A program made the position numbers and the translations under genes. The notes below the pieces were generated by a model that saw nothing but the letters and a program-made list of their open reading frames with translations, was not told the DNA's origin and searched no databases. From positions 1,124,594 to 1,188,593 of the forward strand of contig MU270021.1 in assembly GCA_021432635.1 (NCBI GenBank): 64,000 bases of DNA. Direction: 5' to 3'. This DNA comes from Thozetella sp. PMI_491 (lineage: Eukaryota > Ascomycota > Sordariomycetes > Chaetosphaeriales > Chaetosphaeriaceae). Below, piece after piece: positions 20,829-47,746 of the stretch (position 1 is its first letter; every line of letters begins with the position of its first letter).

Positions 20829-20911
20829 CGGATCAGCGGATCAGCATCTGGCGGATCAGCACCCTGCATTATCCCTCCTCGCTCCATCGACCTGCCATCC
20901 CAACTGATCCG
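20829..20911. promoter_or_regulatory. four CGGATCAG elements upstream of GTP cyclohydrolase
   Basis: CGGATCAG occurs at 20829-20836, 20837-20844 and 20852-20859 on the plus strand and in reverse (CTGATCCG) at 20904-20911, about 240-320 bp before the GTP cyclohydrolase start. Such dense repetition in a promoter suggests a binding site for a specific regulator. CGGATCA also recurs in the promoters at 42.6, 44.1 and 46.6 kb. The protein that binds it is unknown. Confidence 0.55.
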
Positions 20912-21148
20912 TCCGAAATTTTACCAAGAGAGATCCGAGTCAATGATCCCGAATGGTGGGGATTCTTGGCAGCCAGGTTATCCCAATTCAGAAGAATGCA
21001 ATGTTTGCCTCATAAATACCCTCTGTTATTTCCGGGGTTAGCGACAATATGCAACAGTGACCCGATCAAACATTCAGCGGCAACTTTCACTTGCTGCCCT
21101 CTTCACAGAATATCAGTCTCAAGGTTTCTATTTCTATTTTCTGCAAAC

Positions 21149-21998
21149 ATGCCTGCTACCCTTGAACCAGTTCCTGTCTTCCCTGTGAACGGGCTAAGGA
21201 ACTACGAACAACATGTGCTGAGCGGCAAGGGACTCATCCATGGAGACGAACCGATCGACCGTCGGGACAGCCCATCTTCAGGTAAGGCTCAAGTTTTGCT
21301 GCATTGCAACCAGGGACGTCATTAATCCCGAAATGCAGATTGCCCGCCCGAGTATCAAGGCCATATACCAACATCAGACATCAACTTGAGCATCGCAAAG
21401 ATCTCTAGTGCTTTAAAGGTGGTGCTCGAGGCGGTAGGAGAGGATTCAAGCAGGGAAGGGCTGCTAAAGACCCCGGAACGGTTTGCGAAAGCTATGATGT
21501 TTTTCACGAGGGGCTACGAGCAAGATCCTGCTGTAATTCTCAGAGATGCCGTCTTCCATGAGAACCACGAGGGCCTTGTTCTTGTCAAAGACATCGAGTT
21601 CTCCAGCTTATGCGAGCACCACTTGGTCCCGTTTATCGGCAAGGTGAGAGATTTTGGGTCTTAAAGACGGCATTTTCCATGACTAACTATACTAGATGCA
21701 CATTGGATATATCCCGGATGGCAAGATCGTAGGGCTTTCCAAGATGGCCCGGGTCGGCGAGGCTTTCGCTCGAAGGCTCCAAGTACAAGAGCGTCTGACA
21801 ACAGAGATCGCACATTGCATGTTCAACGTCTTGCAGCCACGAGGGGTAGCAGTCGTGATTGAAGCCACACATCAGTGTATGGTAATGCGAGGTGTCCAGA
21901 AGAGAGGGGCCTCAACAACGACTACCTGCTTTCTCGGGGAGTTTGACACAAATAGGGATTGCAAAGAAGATTTCTGGAGGTCTCTCTCCAGTCGATAG
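21149..21998 (+). CDS. GTP cyclohydrolase I
   Basis: Three exons (21149-21281, 21339-21643, 21696-21998) give 246 residues. The family core is complete: [13 protein letters not shown], the zinc motif [11 protein letters not shown] (Cys and His ligands), [22 protein letters not shown] across intron 2, QERLTTEIA, and [17 protein letters not shown] with the second zinc Cys. The enzyme converts GTP to 7,8-dihydroneopterin triphosphate, the first step to folate, tetrahydrobiopterin and deazapurines. A housekeeping copy is expected elsewhere in the genome, so this copy beside unrelated sugar genes may be a specialised paralogue. Its promoter shares CGGATCA elements with the peptide cluster near 42-47 kb, which contains a pterin-synthase-like gene. 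The link is inferred. Confidence 0.93.
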
Positions 21999-36573: not shown

Positions 36574-38798
36574 ATGGATGACTCCTCCGGTCATGCGCAG
36601 CCCGAAATGTCAAGGCGGCAAGCCGTCAATGTATGTCTTGCCTCTGCTGTGAGGGGAGATCCGGAGCGTTGCTGATGTCGCGTTTGAGGCCTGCTCGGCA
36701 TGCCGAGATCGCAAGATACGATGCGATGAAGGAAGGCCGTCATGCGGCCGGTGTGTACGCCTAGGGCTGTCCTGCACTTACGTGGAGACAATCAACTCCA
36801 AGTACGCCGGAACATCCCGATGCTCGTTGGACACTGCGTGCTCAAGATGACGGCAGGAAAGCCCTTCATGTGCAAGAACTAGCCGACACGCTGAGGCGTA
36901 TGGAATCGAAAATAGACGCTCTCATGGACAGTCGCGGTCGCGAGGGCTCGACCGCCGCGCTCGACTCTGCAGACATGACGAATTCGCAGAACTGTCGCCC
37001 TTCACTGCCGTTGGGCAGATCGCTTGGCTGGGACAGCTCGTTCCAGCCTATGCAGGAGCTTGCAATCCCTAAGAGGCATCTCACGGCCCCGCAGCATTTG
37101 CTAGCATGGCCATGCTCGCCAATTCGACTCACAGACTGGGAACGGCGATATCCTCTTCAGCTCGAGGTAAGAAGGCCGAAACAAGAGCCGAACATTTCCG
37201 TCGCCATGGCCGAGGAATGGCTGGCTGGACTCTCAGTAGACCGAATCCGTCTCTTCGCAGCACTTTATTTTGCCCATCTACATCCGCAACACCTTATCCT
37301 AGATGAGGACTCCTTTTACGGTCTGCATCTACAGCGCGCCATAGAGCACGGCTTCAAGGATGGCATAGACAGTTGCTTGGTCCTATTAGTGCTCTGCCTT
37401 GGCGTTATGGCTTGCCGTCACGCTGACAGCTCACAGTGGTCCCATGGTGAACGTGCATTGGAAACACCGGCTTGCGGGCTAGGATTATTGAGTCTGGCGG
37501 TGGGGATCTTTCGCAGGGACCACGAAACTGACTGGCACAGCGTTCAATGCCTCCTGCTCATGGGGTAAGTGCCAATCCTGACGTTTTGAACTGCTTTGTA
37601 TGATGAACCCTCTACGCGTAGGCCCCACTGACCATGTGTGAGTAGTCTACTCCACAATGCTGAACTGCAAGTTTATGATCATTGGCGGGCTATAAACCAA
37701 GCCTGTTCGATGATTATGATTCTTATGTCTTTGTAGGTTAACAGAGCGATGAGGGACGGAAAAGCCATTGACTCTGATTTCACAGGCAAGAAAAGCTTGA
37801 ACCGAATCATTGCCAGCTCTATTGGATTGCCTATCTCCAGGAAAGGTATTTGTGAAAGGGTTCCGGAGAGATTGGAATTTTGTCGCTAATGGTTTGGGTG
37901 TGAAGTCAGATTCTAGCCGAATTAGACTTCCCCCCTAGCGGAGTGAGCGGCTCGGAGAACGTCGTTCCTCTTCCACTAGCTCCCACCTCCGATACCAATC
38001 CACATCAGCAAGACTATCAGTCGTTCTTTCTGGCGCTCATATCGATGCGGCGGCTGCTGAACCGGATCCATTCCTACATCTACAATCAAGGCAAGTACCC
38101 ATGTTATCGCAAACTACAATCTTTACTGAGTCGTTGCTAGATAGTCTGTCTTCCCCGCCTCCTGCTGTTGTTGCCGAGCTAGACCGCCAGATAGAACAGT
38201 GGAAAGCTTGCCTACCTGAAGTGCACCAATTTCCAAATCTATCACTGGCACAGGAACTGGAGAGCACTCGGTTGAACTACCGACGGTCATTGCCGGACAG
38301 ACTAATAGGCCATCTCAAGACTCGCTACTATTCCGCCAAAGCTATCCTCTACCGGTCCTGTGTCTACGCGGCGCTCAACCCAGAAATGAAAGATCATATG
38401 TCAGCGAGTGACATTCGCGGTGCTCAAATAGCTCTATCGTCCGCGCTTTTGTCTGTCTTGGCCGGCGGCATACTTCATGAGCCTTGCGAATATTTGCTTC
38501 ACCCTATCAATGCCTGGCGAACGTAAGCATTATACCCGTCGCCAAACTGTACTGCTCACAATATGGGCCATCGACTCATGTCAGCCACAGTCTTTTCGCG
38601 GCCGAGATACAGGTGGCGTTCACAATTCGAAATGCGCAACTTGCAAGCTCTATGCTCCCTCCGGGATGGGAGATGATTCAATACGCGCGTAAGAAGGCCG
38701 TCACGCAAGCAGCTCCTGATATGTCCCCGACATTAGCGCGGGATTATGAGCTACTGAAATCTATCGTCGCCGCCGGTCCGAAACCTGGTATCTGGTAG
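36574..38798 (+). CDS. Zn(II)2Cys6 transcription factor, fungal_trans domain
   Basis: Eight exons (36574-36630, 36689-36801, 36857-37564, 37646-37732, 37786-37845, 37906-38090, 38141-38522, 38591-38798) give 599 residues with every phase matching. The zinc cluster ([21 protein letters not shown]...C) opens exon 2 and is followed by a predicted coiled coil ([17 protein letters not shown]). The regulatory domain has the usual landmarks ([23 protein letters not shown] across intron 3; [13 protein letters not shown] across intron 4). Intron 6 begins with GCAAGT, another GC-AG intron; no GT choice keeps the frame. Its place next to the GH78 gene makes it a candidate regulator of rhamnoside use, comparable in position, not proven function, to known rhamnose regulators. 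Confidence 0.85.
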
Positions 38799-40527: not shown

Positions 40528-42215
40528 TTAATCCTCAACAGTTTCTTCTAAAAGAAACACAGGTAAGGCGGCAAGGACTGCTATAGCCGAGAGACCGGAC
40601 CAGGGCACGAAAGAAGAGTGTACAGAATCCCCCCACGAATACAAAAGACCAATAGTGAATGTACCAGATGCCCTTAATATACTTGTAGAGACCAAGGCCA
40701 CATTATTCAGCCAACTGAGATGCTGCATGTTCGTGCTGGAGTTGCTGAGCAGAACTAATGAACATGGAAACGCAAACATGGCGGATAGGCTCTTGAGTAG
40801 AAGCAGAATGCTAAGTGCCGTTGCTTGAAGCACAGGATAACCATTCAGTACCGGGAGGAAAGGGATACCGATATAGATAATTGGAAAGCAGAGTGCACAC
40901 AGCCGAAAACATGCGGCATTTCCGTATCGTTGGGTAATGGTGTTGAACAAAAGAAGCTGCGCCACAACCACAACGACGCCGCTGATAGTAAAGTAGAGGC
41001 CGACCTGGGCTGTGGTCATGCCAAGACCTTCATTTGTTTTGCGATCGGCGTGTAGAATCACCGGCGTAATCTCGTCAAACACCACACTGTGGGTCGCCAA
41101 TAGAGCTTGAGCTGCGAGATTCAGTAGGCTCCTCCGGTTGAGCCGGTTGCCGAATTCTTCCTTTGCGGGATATGCGCTGGGACTGGTTTCTTCTACCACC
41201 GTTTGTTCGTCGTCATCTCTAACCAATTCATACACAGACTCTTCTCTTTCTGTACCTATGCTCTCCTTAGTTTTGGGTGGGGCTAGGCGGTAAACTAGCT
41301 GAACGAGGAATTGACCCAAAGATACTCCGTAGTCTTTTCTGTGGTAAAATATGGAGCTGGTTTCCTATGATATGGCGTTAAACAACATGATTATATGCGT
41401 GGACATAGGTCAGCTGTTCTAAGGATACAGAGAATCAAACACGGCAAAGGGCATAACTCACTCGGAAGAAGAGCATGAATAATATCAAGATCAGCATAAG
41501 AAAGCAGCTTCCAACTATATTTGGTGCCAGCCAAGGGAATAGTGTCGTGAATGAAGGAACTTGAGCTCGATCCTGGGAGGATAGGCTATGTCCTGCAAAC
41601 AAACCAGCAGTTGACGGGCCAAGTATACTACCAATATTCCACACCATGCTGTAGAGAGGATTAGAAGAGAGCTGAGGAATATCCCGAGCCACATAATCAT
41701 TGACAAGACTCACGGGAGTATGGACAAGGCAAACGGCCGTAGCTCTTTCTCACGAACCAACTCCACCATGGTCGTCCTTCTTTTGTCAGCTTTATCCTAA
41801 ACTTGTCGTCTGAGAGCTTGAGAGGAACAAACGTACCGAAGCAATCCGATGTCCCCGAGACTGACTCCAATCATACAGCAAGATATCAGACACCAGGGAA
41901 TAGACCCGGATAATCCGAAAACAGTAGTAGACAAGATGGTGACAAGTAGCGCCCCAGCCACGGCAGGCTTCCGGCCAAACCGATCTGAGAGGACGGTCCA
42001 TCCGAAGGTGGAGAGGCACTGAAAGGTAGAAATAAGCCCCAAGCTCACCTCGACCCAGAACCCAACGTCCTGTTGCGAAGAGAGAAACGAAGCCATCATG
42101 GCTGGCTAGAACCTTATCAGCATATTTCCCATCTAGTCCAACCAGCTCGCATCGCCTCGTACCAGGTAAGTCGGGATGGAAGTCAGGACAAAGGGTTCGG
42201 AAAGTCGGCATGCAG
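40528..42215 (-). CDS. MFS transporter (DHA1-like), N-terminal exon unresolved
   Basis: Five minus-strand exons are well supported: 42215-42163, 42069-41837, 41776-41714, 41648-41462 and 41364-40528. They join to ACRLSEPFVLTSIPTYL (helix 1), STFGWTVLSDRFGRKPAVAG (the loop 2-3 signature), GDIGLLRTTMVELVREKELRPFALSILPMVWNIGSILGPSTAGLFAG (helices 4-5), then a central loop and six more helices ending in FLLEETVED. This is a drug:proton-antiporter-like efflux family. The first coding exon should lie within about 42220-42520, where the fragment PLLSSRNNRRPQTS looks like its N-terminus, but no open start in that frame was found. It shares a promoter region with the repeat-peptide gene, so export of that cluster's product is a reasonable guess. 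Confidence 0.78.
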
Positions 42216-42603
42216 CTAGTTCAACGAGTCAATCCAGAGACCGCAAGATCTCGCGCTTTCCTTGACAGTGAACGAACCCAGAAGCGTAATTTGCACCCCC
42301 AACTGATACAGCAGATTTCGTGGACCCAACATCGTGTAGTGTAGTAATTAGCTGGATTCTTTTGAACGTTGTTCTGGATGATGACACTGAAAACTTTGGA
42401 CGAGGGGATAGAGTTTATCAGCCTCGTAAGCCTGGCAGAAGTCTGGGGGCGGCGGTTGTTACGCGAAGATAGAAGAGGCAACGCGATGAGTCAGCAGGAC
42501 GAGATCGCAAGCTGTCCATTGCCCTCCCGGAGTGCCTCGTGGTGCGTGAGTGATTAGACTAGAGACTGGGGTAGAGCTGGTGGGATGAATCCATGGATTA
42601 GGA

Positions 42604-42641
42604 CGGATCATCCCGGGGGGTGTGCTCCCTCCGCGGATCAG
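42604..42641. promoter_or_regulatory. two CGGATCA elements, transporter/peptide-precursor promoter
   Basis: CGGATCA at 42604-42610 and CGGATCAG at 42634-42641 lie between the divergent MFS transporter and the repeat-peptide gene, about 250-290 bp before the latter's start. The second is identical to the octamer repeated upstream of GTP cyclohydrolase. Confidence 0.5.
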
Positions 42642-42889
42642 CTCTAATTTTGAGGGCTTAGCTACGCTAATGAATCGAGATTTGGTTGGATTGCGTAGGA
42701 TAGTTGTGTGGGGACTACAGTTCTAAGTTGCAGTTGGTTTTTCTGAGGATATCGAGTACTAATAGGTTGCACCATCGCCGCCATTCTCACCTCGAATAGC
42801 ACCTCACTATCATCAGCAATCACATCAAACAATTCTTTAAATAAACCAACATAAACATAAAGTTAAGAGATTTTTTCATCATCTTCAAC

Positions 42890-43453
42890 ATGCACTCCGC
42901 AACTTTCATCCAGTATCTTGCCGGCCTGCTTTCGGTAGCCGCTGCGCTTCCAACCCCGGTCGAAGCCCCGTCCGCCGTCGAAATCCTCTGCTCCGAGAAC
43001 GGTTCTTCAGCTTCATGCGCCGGGCTTGTCTCACGAGAGCCCGACAATACCCCATCTGCTGTCGAGATTCTTTGCAGCAAAGGCCAGTCCTCCGCGCTGT
43101 GCGCTGGACTCGTCCAGCGGGGTGCGGATTCTGAACCTTCCGCAGTCGAAATCCTCTGTAGCAAAGATGAGTCTTCGGCACTCTGCGCTGGACTAGTTCA
43201 AAGAGACCCAGAGTCCGATCCTTCCGCCGTGGAAATACTCTGCAGCAAAGATGAGTCCTCAGCTACGTGCGCTGGGCTTGTCGCGCGCAAGCCTGAGACA
43301 ACCCCATCTGCGGTCGAAATTCTTTGCAGCAAGGATGAAAACTCGGCTCTGTGCGCGGGGCTAGTTCAGCGGGATTCGTCTGCTGTCGAAATTCTCTGCA
43401 GCAAGGACGAGAACTCTGCGCTGTGTGCCGGGTTGGTTGAGCGTCAGGACTAA
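42890..43453 (+). CDS. secreted multi-repeat peptide precursor (RiPP or pheromone-like)
   Basis: A single exon of 187 residues: a signal peptide (about 1-19, ending LSVAAALP) and then six copies of SAVEILCSxxxSSAxCAGLVxR, starting at residues 28, 56, 84, 112, 140 and 164. Each copy has two cysteines spaced C-X8-C and ends in Arg. Between copies 1-5 lie six-residue spacers (EPDNTP, GADSEP, DPESDP, KPETTP), which resemble the X-Pro/X-Ala dipeptides removed by Ste13 after Kex2 cleavage in alpha-factor precursors. The repeats differ mostly at synonymous sites, a sign that the peptide is under selection. There are no aromatic residues in the repeat, unlike known dikaritin cores that use Tyr. With a UstY/DUF3328 gene 2 kb away, a RiPP precursor is likely; a secreted signalling peptide is the alternative. 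A possible intron follows the stop. Confidence 0.82.
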   Translation: MHSATFIQYLAGLLSVAAALPTPVEAPSAVEILCSENGSSASCAGLVSREPDNTPSAVEILCSKGQSSALCAGLVQRGADSEPSAVEILCSKDESSALCAGLVQRDPESDPSAVEILCSKDESSATCAGLVARKPETTPSAVEILCSKDENSALCAGLVQRDSSAVEILCSKDENSALCAGLVERQD

Positions 43454-44077
43454 ATGTACGTTCCCTACCTTCCATTGCGCCTTTTTTTCTGACGGTTCTC
43501 ATATTAGTATTGCAAATGGGTCTTGGGGTATATGACGAAGGGTTGTTGAGGAGTATGTAGCAGATAGCAGTAGGGTCTTTAAATTCTATCATGTCTCCTT
43601 TCCGCGGCTTCTTCAATACTTCAAATACTCGTGTAATGGCCGAGTCGGTAAAAGGCTACGATTATGCTTGGCACACTCAAATTTTCTGTAGAGTAGATGC
43701 AAAATAAGGACGCAAATATGTGCGATCTGGCCTTGCGCAAGTTGATATTCGGCTCCAATTATGAAACCTCTTTGCCAGAAGCGGCCGGCAAAGAGAATGT
43801 CAAAGCCATATCAATGTTCCCGAGAAATAAATTGTGCACTTAATTATCATATCCAAGAGAGAGAAATATATACTCATTCTCGAAAGGTGGATGGTGAGCT
43901 ACGTACAGCAGGTGCCTACGCTTCAAGTCTAGCCGACCTTGTGCCTAAGCCGAGCCGATGTCGTATGGAAAATGAAACATGAATGATGTGCGAGAAATAA
44001 ATTCGGAGCTAGTGCAACGGAAAGTAAGAGTTCTTTCATCATTGAGCAGGTGAGAAAAATCGTATGGACCTGCACAA
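43454..44077. other. intergenic downstream of the peptide gene
   Basis: It begins with a GTACGT..TTAG segment that could be a 3'-UTR intron of the peptide gene. No other gene; a tRNA-like D-arm string near 43637 is not supported. Confidence 0.4.
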
Positions 44078-44117
44078 CGGATCCACGCAACACGAGTTGA
44101 TCCGTCGACGGATCAAC
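44078..44117. promoter_or_regulatory. CGGATC sites including a perfect 22-bp palindrome
   Basis: A CGGATCC lies at 44078-44084. At 44096-44117 is a perfect inverted repeat: GTTGATCCGTC followed directly by its complement GACGGATCAAC. It sits about 280 bp before the PTPS-like gene and looks like a dimeric regulator site containing the CGGATCA element seen in the other cluster promoters. Confidence 0.6.
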
Positions 44118-44364
44118 CCCCATTTGCCGCCACCAGGTCTTTGCCCGCCTTGATCCTCGCTAAACTCGCGAGACACTATGCTCCATATTGTACGCTAAGA
44201 CTAGGCTTTAAATCGTTGTAGGCTGCACCCGATAAACTTACACATTTACTGAAATATCAATTTAACAAGAACTCAGATCTTACCTTGCAAATATAGTACA
44301 CCCGACCATCGCATACAGTATCCAACACGACTAGCAAAGAGGTGACAAAAAAAGTCAATCTAAG

Positions 44365-44372
44365 TTACGTCA
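44365..44372. promoter_or_regulatory. possible bZIP/CRE-like site
   Basis: TTACGTCA (reverse TGACGTAA) occurs 25 bp before the PTPS-like start codon. It fits the general bZIP half-site pattern, but a single octamer could be chance. Confidence 0.25.
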
Positions 44373-44396
44373 CCGCCGTCAGTGCTCCTTTACACT

Positions 44397-44897
44397 ATGC
44401 CGGCCCAGTATAGCTTTACCCTCGAGAGGAAAGATCTGCAGTTCGCTGCTTCACATTTTACTCACTTCGGTCCCAACGAGACCGAAGAACTTCACGGCCA
44501 CAACTTCTTTGTCAAACTTCGCTGCACTGGGAGCCACCTCGATGATCAAGAGCTACTACTCGATATCTTCAAGCCCGAGGAGATCATCCGCAGAGTATGC
44601 GGCACTCTGAATAACCGTGTCTTGCTGGCAGAGGCAAGTCCTCTTGCGAGATTGACGCGTACTACTGAGGGTGTTGACGTGAAGTTTGCCAACAAATCTT
44701 GGCGTTTTCCTCGGGAAGGAGTTGTGGAGCTTCCGATGAAGAATTTGTCTTGTGAAGCATTGGCGAGATATTTTTGGAAAGAAGTGCAGCCGGCATTGTT
44801 AAATACAGGTGTGGAGAGGATGGCTATTGGAATTGAGGAACTGGATGGGGTAGCCTTTTGGTACGAAGACGACGTCGTCTCGAACGCCCGTTTTTAA
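44397..44897 (+). CDS. 6-pyruvoyl-tetrahydropterin synthase/QueD-like protein, altered active site
   Basis: A single exon of 166 residues. The family fold is recognisable: FAASHFTHFG near the N-terminus, HGHNFFVKLRCTG, LSCEALARYFW and IGIEELDGVAF near the C-terminus. The zinc His triad (H20, H33, H35) and the C-terminal pterin-anchoring Glu are kept. The classical catalytic Cys is absent; Glu31 gives ExHGH, which I recall as the signature of the PTPS-III type. The usual LDHKNL block, with the Asp-His pair, reads LNNRVL here. So it may bind a pterin but is unlikely to be an ordinary PTPS. Possible roles are a modified pterin step or a divergent aldolase/lyase activity. It lies between the peptide precursor and the UstY-like gene. 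Confidence 0.82.
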   Translation: MPAQYSFTLERKDLQFAASHFTHFGPNETEELHGHNFFVKLRCTGSHLDDQELLLDIFKPEEIIRRVCGTLNNRVLLAEASPLARLTRTTEGVDVKFANKSWRFPREGVVELPMKNLSCEALARYFWKEVQPALLNTGVERMAIGIEELDGVAFWYEDDVVSNARF

Positions 44898-45478
44898 GCG
44901 TGAAGAGCCTAGTTAGCATGCTATGACAAGAGTTAGCTATATGTTCAACCCTTGGCATAATCAGGAGTATCCTATTGTCCCTATTGTTTATTAGCCTTTA
45001 TCTCTGACTAACTTGGAAGACTCCTGAATTACTCGATACCAGGACCACACAGCTTTGTAGAGACTTGGACGCTATTTTCCAGTTCAATGCCGAGTTTGAA
45101 TAGTTATCACGCTGAAGACTAAGCCTGACTAGTCGCTAGATTAAACGCCAGATCCTCCAGTGACGAGGAATATGGTGAAGTCCAACGGGTCCTAATGTCC
45201 TAGCAGGGATTATGAATGTTCGAAATTTCTAATACAGAGTAACAAAAAATACGTAGTTGAGTCTGTACCTTAAAAGAGGCAAAATTGCTCGCAACGTAGG
45301 TAGTATTGACCCTCGACCGCGAATACGGATTAAAAGCATTATAATAATAGCGACGTAAATATATTTACATTTCTATTTTCCCATTCATGTATGAAAGCCG
45401 TTAGGGTTGTCCAAGTACTTTAAATTACATAGACCAATTGGTTTTGTTTGACCTCCCACTGATGTATTTCTATCTGCG
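44898..45478. other. intergenic between convergent genes
   Basis: AT-rich 3' region shared by the PTPS-like and UstY-like genes. No gene or repeat seen. Confidence 0.4.
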
Positions 45479-46388
45479 TTATTTCGCTGAAGCCTTGTGC
45501 ACATAGCCGTAAGAATTTATCTTGGCCCATTCCTTGTAAGCATCGAAATTCTTGCAAGTCATGGCCTGTCCAACCCCTGCTTCCTTACCTGGCTCTCTTC
45601 CAAGAAGCGTCCCATCCGGGTTGCACACAATATGGGCTCTCAAAGTGTCGACACAGTGCATCGTGTGGTGCCATGCATCGACATCCATAGAAAATTTGTC
45701 AAATTGGTGAAATTTGGTCAAAACGTATCGAATCAACGACTACGGACCGTTAATATCTAGTCCGCGCGAAGACAGACAACGAGGTGAAGAAAATTTGACT
45801 CACAACGCAGTGCATGTGATGGAAACCGGACATCAGATACACAGACAGTGTTCCATCAGGCGTTCTTACGGAAGGGCGAAGGCCCATAGCAGCGACGCGT
45901 TCGTCGGGAAGCACCACCACGCCATCGCCTTCTGTCGTGACCATTAGTACTAGCAACCTTATTTTCTACTACGGAAAGATCGCACCTGGAAACATGGTTC
46001 TCCAATAAGTGTCAGAGACGGTCGCATTATCGTCGAAAAAGCCTTCGGAGAGAAATTCGGTTGTCTGGGTGACGACGCTGGCAAAGCTGTGCGAGGGCGT
46101 ATCGACTAGTAACGTGTAAATTTGAGAATCCCATGCACTTGAAACTCTTTAGAGACAGTACACACGGTAATAATCCCTGGTATCTTTCAAGCTCGATCTC
46201 GCGAACCGATATACAGCAATGTTGGAGATAAGTATAGCTAAGATGAATGAGGCTGGGAGGACTGTTCGCCAGATACGGTTCGCCGATTGTGAGCTCCTCG
46301 TGGCTGTCACGGGTGCATCATCGGCCTCATATTCATCATCGGAGTGAAGAACTAGCCGGGTGTATTCCGGCGCTTCCTTGGACACCAT
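45479..46388 (-). CDS. UstY/DUF3328 family oxidase-like protein
   Basis: Four minus-strand exons (46388-46166, 46105-45986, 45931-45804, 45739-45479) give 243 residues, the standard family size. A single membrane helix spans residues about 42-60 after a short acidic cytoplasmic tail. The catalytic region contains both family motifs: HHMHC (H152-C156) and HTMHC (H182-C186), joined across the last intron. FPEGDGVVVLPDERVAA and a C-terminal DAYKEWAK segment complete the pattern. The 54-bp second intron has a perfect TACTAAT branch site. UstYa/UstYb-type proteins are oxidative tailoring enzymes in fungal RiPP pathways (ustiloxin, phomopsin, asperipin, cyclochlorotine-type clusters). Its nearness to a repeat-peptide gene strongly suggests it modifies that peptide. 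It is divergent from the SDR. Confidence 0.9.
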
Positions 46389-46615
46389 GGCTACAAAGAC
46401 AAAGGGACAGAGTGAGGTGCTCGAGCTTCGCTTTCGTGTGACGTGAGGTCTCGGTTTCAATGATAGAAGTGAAATCTAAATGTAGTGATGCAAATAGCGT
46501 AGCGATTGCATTTTGGGCTTGCAAGGCTTGCCAGCCATTGTTACATCATAATCCGCCCCACGAGTGCGTGGATCATTACCCCTGTGCCTTCCAGACGGCG
46601 TAGCCTCATTTTGAC

Positions 46616-46630
46616 GACGGATCATCCGTC
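46616..46630. promoter_or_regulatory. CGGATCA inverted repeat in a bidirectional promoter
   Basis: GACGGAT, one base, ATCCGTC form an inverted repeat between the divergent UstY-like gene (start 46388) and the SDR gene (start 46865), about midway. It contains the CGGATCA element found in the other cluster promoters. Confidence 0.5.
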
Positions 46631-46864
46631 CGATCGAAGACCGCGTGTAGGCGAAAACCATGATCCTTTGATCCACCGCAGGGTATACGCCGGGCGTGTA
46701 CCGATAATCCATCTCCAGCTGGATCATATCCATTCGCCACCGTCACCGTCTGCGTATATTTACTTCCTCTCATCACCTTTCTGGGCATCCGGTTGTCACT
46801 CAGTGTCAACTTCAGCCATCAGCAATACCTCTACCGCCTACAAATCATCCCGATTTTGGCCATC

Positions 46865-47746
46865 ATGAACCAGTCCAATGGGGAGCAGGTTGAGGGGTTT
46901 GTCAGATCTCGCCATCAATCCTACTCTTTCCTCCACACTCCTAACCAGCCGCCCTCTGGTAAATCTGTTCTCATAACGGGGGCGTCCAAAGGCATTGGGA
47001 GAGCCATCGCGATTCGATTCGCCGCAGCTGGCTACTCTCGCATCGCCCTCGCTGCACGCTCTCCACTCGATGCGATCGAAGTTGAGGTTCGGGATGCGGC
47101 AATAAGGGCGAATCGCCCCACGCCTCAAGTCCTCTCCCTTACCATGGACGTAGCCTCACCCGCGGATGTCCAAGCGGGTGTTGCTACTTTTACAGAAACC
47201 TTTGGAGACAGCTTGGATGTATTAGTCACCAATGCCGGGATCATGGAACCCTGGCGACCCATCGCGGAGGCTAATCCTACAGAATGGTGGAGGACTTGGG
47301 AAGTAAATCTCAAGGGTACATTCAACTGCGCCCACTACTTCATTCCTCTTCTACTCAAATCATCAACCAAAACTTTGGTTACCGTCTCGAGTGTCGGCTC
47401 ATACAAGCTCGGCGTTGGAGCGTCGGCATACAACGCATCAAGGCTTGCCACGTGCAGGCTCAACGAGTTCATTGACCACGAATATAGTGGGCAGGGCTTG
47501 ATCTCCGTGTCCATCCACCCAGGAGACGTAAAGACCGACCTCTCCAGCAAGCTTCCAGAATTTCTCCACCCGAAGCTGTTAGATGAACCAGAACTGGCCG
47601 CCGATACAATAGTCTGGCTAGCATCAGAGAGGCGTGAATGGCTTTCTGGGAGGTACATCAGCTGTAACTGGGACATGGAGGCGCTCGAAGGAAGAAAGAG
47701 CGAGATTATGACCAAAGATCTCTTTAAATTTGTAATGGCTGTCTAA
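46865..47746 (+). CDS. short-chain dehydrogenase/reductase with YxxxR
   Basis: A single exon of 293 residues. The Rossmann motif TGASKGIGRAIA, the NAGIM motif and the catalytic Ser region (VSSVGSYKLG) are present. The catalytic Tyr (Y189) is followed by Arg at the usual Lys position (YNASR, residues 189-193). Arg there is uncommon and could change activity or cofactor handling. HPGDVKTDL follows as in NADP-dependent fungal SDRs. It is divergent from the UstY-like gene and shares a CGGATCA inverted repeat with it. Possible roles are reduction of a pterin intermediate (sepiapterin-reductase-like position in a pathway) or of an oxidised peptide. Neither is shown by sequence. Confidence 0.85.
   Translation: MNQSNGEQVEGFVRSRHQSYSFLHTPNQPPSGKSVLITGASKGIGRAIAIRFAAAGYSRIALAARSPLDAIEVEVRDAAIRANRPTPQVLSLTMDVASPADVQAGVATFTETFGDSLDVLVTNAGIMEPWRPIAEANPTEWWRTWEVNLKGTFNCAHYFIPLLLKSSTKTLVTVSSVGSYKLGVGASAYNASRLATCRLNEFIDHEYSGQGLISVSIHPGDVKTDLSSKLPEFLHPKLLDEPELAADTIVWLASERREWLSGRYISCNWDMEALEGRKSEIMTKDLFKFVMAV

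Follow-up and report, generated by a model that had tools for sequence, protein, structure and literature searches.

Do genes for a secreted repeat peptide, a UstY-type oxidase and pterin synthesis that lie close together in a filamentous ascomycete serve a common product, or are they mere neighbours? The question is raised by a block of five genes (positions 40528-47746) in a 64-kb stretch of Thozetella sp. PMI_491 DNA, referred to here as the window (C7:1124594-1188593 in a 72.3-Mb assembly). Thozetella is a sordariomycete genus of the family Chaetosphaeriaceae. The block comprises genes for a major facilitator superfamily (MFS) transporter, a precursor with six peptide repeats, a protein of the 6-pyruvoyltetrahydropterin synthase (PTPS) family, a UstY (DUF3328) protein and a short-chain dehydrogenase/reductase (SDR). 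Open models were obtained for all five and, with the profile scores, bear out the gene set named in a preliminary description of this DNA. Our answer is tentative and held at somewhat less than an even chance: these five genes and a GTP cyclohydrolase I gene of the same window would form one co-regulated set of six, with a pterin-linked peptide as its output, together providing secreted CX8C peptides, a copper oxidase of the lumen and a reduced pterin. This answer builds on the genes themselves, the repeats, selection on the repeat peptide, and a common upstream element and its position.

The common upstream element and the repeat precursor

The start codons of the precursor, PTPS, UstY and SDR genes all fall inside 4.0 kb. 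MFS and precursor are transcribed divergently, and so are UstY and SDR; each pair therefore has one common upstream region, and GACGGATCA is the only 9-mer common to the block's three intergenic regions. In the window GACGGATCA occurs at five sites against 0.63 expected, a number reached in none of 100 shuffles, and every one of the five falls in the upstream region of GTP cyclohydrolase I, of the MFS/precursor pair, of PTPS or of the UstY/SDR pair. The element is separated from the start codon by 235 bases for GTP cyclohydrolase I, 269 for MFS, 279 for the precursor, 281 for PTPS, 227 for UstY and 240 for SDR, the distances within the two gene pairs with a common upstream region not being independent. 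Taken alone, the element common to the block's three intergenic regions is suggestive only. The remaining site, in the 549 bases before GTP cyclohydrolase I, has a chance probability of 0.9% (1.5% over all 937 intergenic bases), and a 9-mer was common to four stretches of the same lengths elsewhere in the window in 7 of 3000 draws. On its own, CGGATCA shows no excess in the window (14 sites against 9.9 expected; 13 of 100 shuffles reach 14), and 9 of its 14 sites are in the four upstream regions. Genome-wide, the 12-mer GACGGATCAWCC gave 12 matches, three of them in the window, compared with 15 for a reversed control; because this 12-mer was selected from the window sites, its genome-wide count is no test. 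The element contains inverted CGG triplets (TGATCCGTCGACGGATCA before PTPS and GACGGATCATCCGTC between UstY and SDR), which Zn2Cys6 factors favour, and the Zn2Cys6 regulator encoded beside the block is perhaps a candidate reader of it. The common element suggests that the block genes and GTP cyclohydrolase I would be switched on together.

The precursor has a hydrophobic N-terminus with a signal peptide predicted by hydropathy, probably cleaved between AAA and LP. With this predicted endoplasmic reticulum signal peptide and its six repeats it shows two features that characterize Kex2-processed repeat proteins and dikaritin precursors, namely such a signal peptide and at least three tandem repeats of at least eight residues. 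The preliminary description had called the six repeats near-identical, which holds for the peptide (across the 15 repeat pairs, 1-6 of 22 residues differ) but not for the DNA (12-27 of 66 bases differ). Values of dN were 0.02-0.30, while dS was 0.93-2.28 in 7 of the 15 pairs and out of the range of the method in 8. Residue changes are few although synonymous sites have come close to saturation or passed it, which marks the copies as old and their peptide as kept by purifying selection; a chance origin of the repeat pattern is excluded. The CX8C repeat was correctly described as lacking Tyr, and the repeats lack Phe and Trp as well, none of the three residues occurring after residue 27. In dikaritin clusters an aromatic core residue for the side-chain cross-link is usual, not strictly defining, and Tyr is found in 65.6% of repeated sequences beside DUF3328 genes.

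All six Arg residues of the precursor are the last residue of LVxR, so that six of six match LxxR, the extended Kex2 motif (PMC8528282). Dibasic sites are present at one of the six repeat junctions (RK), and the precursor therefore fails the definition of a Kex2-processed repeat protein given in one survey, namely repeats bounded by KR, KK, RK or RR (PMC7329392). Directly after the Arg, four of the five spacers carry an XP or XA dipeptide (EP, GA, DP and KP; DS does not fit). Ste13 removes such dipeptides in alpha-pheromones, and some products seem to end at a single Arg (PMC9769878). Mature peptides of 23-25 residues with two Cys each would result; the monoisotopic masses calculated for their disulfide forms are 2377.08, 2488.19, 2548.17, 2479.11, 2575.22 and 2350.07 Da. 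The gene is the only match to the precursor in the genome, and a second copy of the cluster was rejected because neither the precursor nor the PTPS had a further match; no Pfam family scored above its cut-off, and a word-based protein search of limited reach gave no relatives. Not even the precursor itself was returned among 5.8 billion proteins, and it may therefore lack annotation in the deposited genome.

Table 1. Genes and upstream elements, with positions in the window
Feature	Position	Strand	Details
Repeat precursor	42890..43453	+	187 aa; predicted signal peptide; six 22-residue cores, SAVEILC-x8-CAGLVxR
Spacers between precursor cores			EPDNTP, GADSEP, DPESDP, KPETTP, DS
PTPS-family gene	44397..44897	+	166 aa; PF01242 54.6 bits (cut-off 22.4)
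UstY/DUF3328	45479..46388	-	243 aa; four exons, 46388-46166, 46105-45986, 45931-45804, 45739-45479
SDR	46865..47746	+	293 aa; PF00106 126.6 bits (cut-off 26.6)
MFS transporter	40528..42332	-	Six exons, 487 aa open; PF07690 57.2 bits (cut-off 33.4) on last 468 aa
GTP cyclohydrolase I	21149..21998	+	246 aa; three exons, 21149-21281, 21339-21643, 21696-21998
GTP cyclohydrolase I upstream element	20829..20913		Three CGGATCAGC and one GACGGATCA (- strand, 20905-20913)
GACGGATCATCC	42602..42613	+	Between MFS and precursor; another CGGATCAGC at 42634
TGATCCGTCGACGGATCA	44098..44115		18-bp perfect palindrome upstream of PTPS
GACGGATCATCCGTC	46616..46630	+	Between UstY and SDR
Zn2Cys6 / Fungal_trans regulator gene	36692..38798 (approximate)	+	Zn2Cys6 pattern at 36692; PF04082 just below cut-off

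Elsewhere in the window, positions 9850-35948 hold a run of plant-polymer genes: a GH127 arabinofuranosidase, two alpha-L-rhamnosidases, a tannase/feruloyl esterase family protein, two sugar transporters and a Zn2Cys6 regulator.

The pterin genes, the SDR and the UstY protein

GTP cyclohydrolase I and PTPS families work in sequence on a known pathway (PMC5041015), and tetrahydrobiopterin is already known from the fungus Mortierella alpina. The GTP cyclohydrolase I of the window scored 236.9 bits for PF01227 (cut-off 27), and 15 of 15 PDB matches were GTP cyclohydrolase I. Two further loci were found in the genome. One, at C18:954111-954693, is a close paralogue, the window protein being 71% (106 aa) and 84% (100 aa) identical to its two exons; the other, at C72:224194-224724, shows 57% identity (178 aa). 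Neither GACGGATCA nor CGGATCA was found in about 1 kb upstream of these two copies, whose starts were placed by eye; the window gene thus comes as an additional copy under a promoter of its own. This extra gene, together with the 9-mer common to four upstream regions, strengthens the earlier idea of a peptide-pterin system.

Only the PTPS gene of the window matched PF01242 in this genome. The protein reads TEELHGH, in keeping with the PTPS-III signature ExxHGH (PMC5041015), and the PTPS-II motif CxxxxxHGH is absent. The best PDB matches were the PTPS chains 1y13, 2a0s, 3m0n and 3lze, which we take to be Plasmodium proteins. The stretch LDHHFIL of the Plasmodium enzyme aligns to LNNRVLL, Asp-His-His being replaced by Asn-Asn-Arg; an Asp-His pair is catalytic in the PTPS family. 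A word-based protein search returned the window's own protein only, which is weak evidence of absence. A recent bacterial origin was considered and dropped, as there were only two matches (L039 and L040) sharing a 14-residue stretch, which in L039 sits in an unrelated membrane-protein-like frame, and neither had further similarity to the PTPS. A structure prediction run without an alignment (pLDDT 33) was unusable.

Two established pterin roles were rejected for this gene. A divergent FolB-like gene is present at C55:77653-78033, where two weak pieces combined reach 41.9 bits, over the cut-off (a FolB search of the genome at E 0.001 gave nothing), and HPPK is encoded on C53, apart from it. With both present elsewhere there is no evident folate gap for a PTPS-III to rescue. 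Supply of a cofactor to aromatic hydroxylases was set aside because the genome had no PF00351 match. Neither folate nor biopterin-dependent aromatic hydroxylation therefore explains the PTPS. The SDR reads YNASR at the SDR motif YxxxK; an Arg thus stands where the motif has Lys, and whether the enzyme is catalytically competent is doubtful. Its paralogues in the genome reach at most 54%, and assignment as a sepiapterin reductase was unsupported, the best 60 of 579 PDB matches being generic.

Over 243 aa, the spliced UstY model matches the deposited Thozetella sp. PMI_491 protein GQ53DRAFT_818185 exactly, and it scored 83.6 bits for PF11807 (cut-off 25). Hydropathy places a hydrophobic segment from residue 43, and both HxxHC motifs (HHMHC and HTMHC) are intact; the predicted transmembrane helix with HxxHC(x)nHxxHC is the arrangement of a putative DUF3328 copper oxidase. 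A DUF3328 protein with two HxxHC motifs is also a mark of dikaritin clusters (PMC12048977). A word-based protein search with UstY returned the window's own protein only, again weak evidence of absence.

The genome is rich in such genes: at least 149 PF11807 matches (150 of 203 candidates were scored) correspond to about 123 genes at 91 loci. We compared 24 UstY loci of 10 kb each, namely the first 20 in contig order, including that of the window, and four chosen among the nearest relatives of the window UstY; eight further loci were compared as short stretches showing little flank. A repeat script detected repeat-peptide frames at 6 of the 23 other 10-kb loci (L017, L018, L019, L022, L024 and L025) and at one of the eight short ones (L007; a match at L002 was L018 again). 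The repeat contained Tyr in all seven frames and KR stood at the repeat junctions in six, examples being SEAQSPDILYNNPAGWGKR in five copies (L025) and repeats of DVSVNTPGDRTGIYWGKVDSEKR (L019). These seven frames are likely to represent separate dikaritin-type clusters. The loci of these four chosen relatives (L035-L038) showed no repeat precursor; L037 had a poly-Lys frame and a 25% MFS match, the latter being the one partner gene shared with the window. Ten long frames from these loci showed no common theme in Pfam.

A UstY tree was built from 33 C-terminal segments (rows of at most 72 aa) covering part of the genome's UstYs; it omits L013, L016 and L026, where the region was poorly covered, and L023, which gave no segment, none of these loci showing a precursor. 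One branch (95/96) separates 22 rows, including all 11 precursor-linked ones, from 11 rows made up of the window UstY and 10 rows with no detected precursor. Fisher's test gave p 0.006 when rows were counted and 0.023 when loci were counted as we grouped them (L014 falling on both sides), where rows within a locus are not independent and four rows had been picked as relatives of the window UstY. Over the whole tree the precursor label is not clustered (9 changes against a shuffled mean of 9.5), and the separation thus rests on the single 95/96 branch. The tree suggests that the window UstY differs from the usual dikaritin type of the genome.

One product, two products or chance

We propose that the common element would be read by a Zn2Cys6 factor, for which the regulator at 36.7 kb beside the block is a possible candidate. 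The precursor would enter the secretory pathway and be cleaved by Kex2 after every LVxR; Ste13 would then trim the leading XP or XA dipeptides and Kex1 the C-terminal Arg, leaving acidic peptides of 23-25 residues, each with one CX8C pair that is likely to form a disulfide. UstY, as a membrane-anchored lumenal copper oxidase, would alter an aliphatic position of these peptides or of a small companion. GTP cyclohydrolase I would supply dihydroneopterin triphosphate, which the unusual PTPS could convert to a reduced pterin; the SDR may reduce the pterin further, and the MFS protein may transport a product. Most probably the pterin would be required for the peptide product or released along with it.

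Under the reading of one co-regulated set, the pterin may thus serve the oxidase or the peptide, and the gene content suggests three roles for it: electron donor to UstY, part of the product, or second product. DUF3328 proteins are described as lumenal, dicopper, O2-using oxidases with a double HxxHC motif that require electrons (PMC12435403; PMC12186524). Their natural donor is not known; the authors propose an accessory protein, and ascorbate, NADH or NADPH increase activity in vitro (PMC12435403; PMC12186524), so that a pterin is one candidate of several. That the pterin arm is the electron source of UstY, a tetrahydropterin made by the dedicated GTP cyclohydrolase I and the altered PTPS entering the secretory lumen and reducing the dicopper centre during oxidation of the CX8C peptides, strikes us as quite improbable; a weaker form of the pterin-UstY idea would have the pterin joined to the secreted peptide.

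Several observations weigh against a single pterin-linked set. The element was found by inspecting three upstream regions, that is, post hoc. Among controls, a common 9-mer arose in 19 of 1000 shuffled sets and 58 of 1000 triples of real window sequence, and a common 12-mer with at most one mismatch in 16 of 1000 and 51 of 1000, respectively. GTP cyclohydrolase I is 18.5 kb off the block, with two alpha-rhamnosidase genes, one tannase-family gene and one sugar-transporter gene between. The PTPS is without the Asp-His pair and below both NCBIfam cut-offs, the SDR is generic (the best 60 of its 579 PDB matches include none named sepiapterin reductase), and the pterin-dependent aromatic hydroxylase family (PF00351) was not found in the genome. 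The window UstY is off the precursor-linked branch of the UstY tree, and searches for relatives of precursor and PTPS gave none that could lend comparative support.

Some of these observations would fit two products under one switch, a somewhat unlikely alternative in which the precursor yields an unmodified, disulfide-bonded, pheromone-like signalling peptide and UstY, SDR, PTPS, GTP cyclohydrolase I and MFS serve the synthesis and export of a small molecule derived from a pterin. The precursor and MFS have one upstream region, however, and the precursor carries the same element as the others; we also know of no DUF3328 enzyme acting on a pterin, which likewise counts against this alternative. 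The processing logic of the precursor is that of alpha-pheromones, and the window UstY is on a branch without other precursor-linked members, both of which favour it. So do the reports that mating-factor or pheromone repeat proteins have no DUF3328 neighbour save three exceptions (PMC7329392) and that DUF3328 enzymes also modify non-ribosomal products (PMC12435403).

It is unlikely that the block is a chance neighbourhood, in which a repeat-peptide gene happens to lie near unrelated genes of a UstY-rich genome and the element is coincidental or belongs to a general regulator. The abundance of UstYa matches (at least 149, or about 123 genes), the rate of post hoc shared 9-mers or 12-mers in controls (16-58 of 1000) and the plant-polymer genes separating GTP cyclohydrolase I from the block all speak for chance. 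Yet the probability of meeting a UstY gene within 2.5 kb of an arbitrary position is about 0.6-0.8% if the genes are evenly spread, although UstY genes do cluster; the further 9-mer site precedes a functionally matching gene; the element keeps within a narrow range of distances from the start codons; and genome-wide the 12-mer is no common element, given its 12 matches against 15 for the reversed control.

An ordinary dikaritin cluster, in which Kex2 frees the cores and UstY then closes each into a ring by way of an aromatic side chain, is very improbable: signal peptide, repeats, a UstY with two HxxHC motifs and a nearby MFS gene fit it, but the repeats have no Tyr, Phe or Trp, one of six junctions is dibasic, the seven other repeat-peptide frames at UstY loci all have Tyr and six have KR junctions, and the window UstY is on a different branch among those sampled, so that the earlier label "dikaritin-type" is not sustained.

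The reading of one co-regulated, pterin-linked set bears on three matters. The paper defining DUF3328 enzymes leaves the electron supply of the lumenal site open (PMC12435403), and a gene set that seems to bring its own pterin supply for such an enzyme makes one answer directly testable. Repeat-peptide surveys limited to dibasic Kex2 sites (e.g. PMC7329392) would miss precursors processed at LxxR. If true, the reading would also explain what a PTPS-family protein does in a filamentous ascomycete with a FolB-like gene of its own and no detected pterin-dependent aromatic hydroxylase.

Comparison with known systems

No fungal PTPS or GTP cyclohydrolase tied to a peptide cluster was found in the open-access literature searched by narrow phrases, which included few subscription papers, the only fungal genome searched being that of the window, and the main texts of PMC7329392 and PMC12048977 contain no words starting with "pterin". 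The earlier statement that no such cluster with a PTPS is known agrees with this, its novelty being provisional; provisionally, the combination of repeat-peptide, copper-oxidase-type and pterin genes is without a precedent that we could find.

Like the dikaritins ustiloxin, phomopsin, asperipin-2a and victorin, the system has a secreted multi-core precursor, predicted Kex2-type release, and UstY and MFS genes nearby. Unlike them, it has LxxR in place of dibasic sites, two Cys per core, no aromatic core residue, old diverged repeats and pterin genes, and its UstY is on another branch in this genome. The window UstY resembles the cyclochlorotine hydroxylase CctR in its hydrophobic anchor and HxxHC(x)nHxxHC, a likeness by motifs only; CctR acts on a non-ribosomal cyclic peptide.

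With PTPS-III, the FolB bypass of Plasmodium and bacteria, the window PTPS shares ExxHGH; it differs in having Asn-Asn for the Asp-His dyad, in a genome with a FolB-like gene and HPPK. From the tetrahydrobiopterin pathway the system differs in a PTPS without CxxxxxHGH, an SDR that is not a sepiapterin reductase among its best 60 PDB matches and a genome with no tetrahydrobiopterin-dependent aromatic hydroxylase found, while GTP cyclohydrolase I and PTPS families in one window, plus an SDR, recall it.

The alpha-pheromone core consensus is WCxxxGQxCW. This pattern has no match in the window precursor and four in the genome, all at C21, where the genome's own alpha-pheromone gene (C21:364918-365463, within locus L043, C21:364800-365800) encodes four WCQIRGQSCW cores with KR sites; the precursor was accordingly rejected as the mating pheromone gene. 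Unlike alpha-pheromone precursors, it is without that core and has a DUF3328 neighbour; like those of ascomycetes, it has a Kex2 site followed by XP/XA dipeptides and short cores with two Cys.

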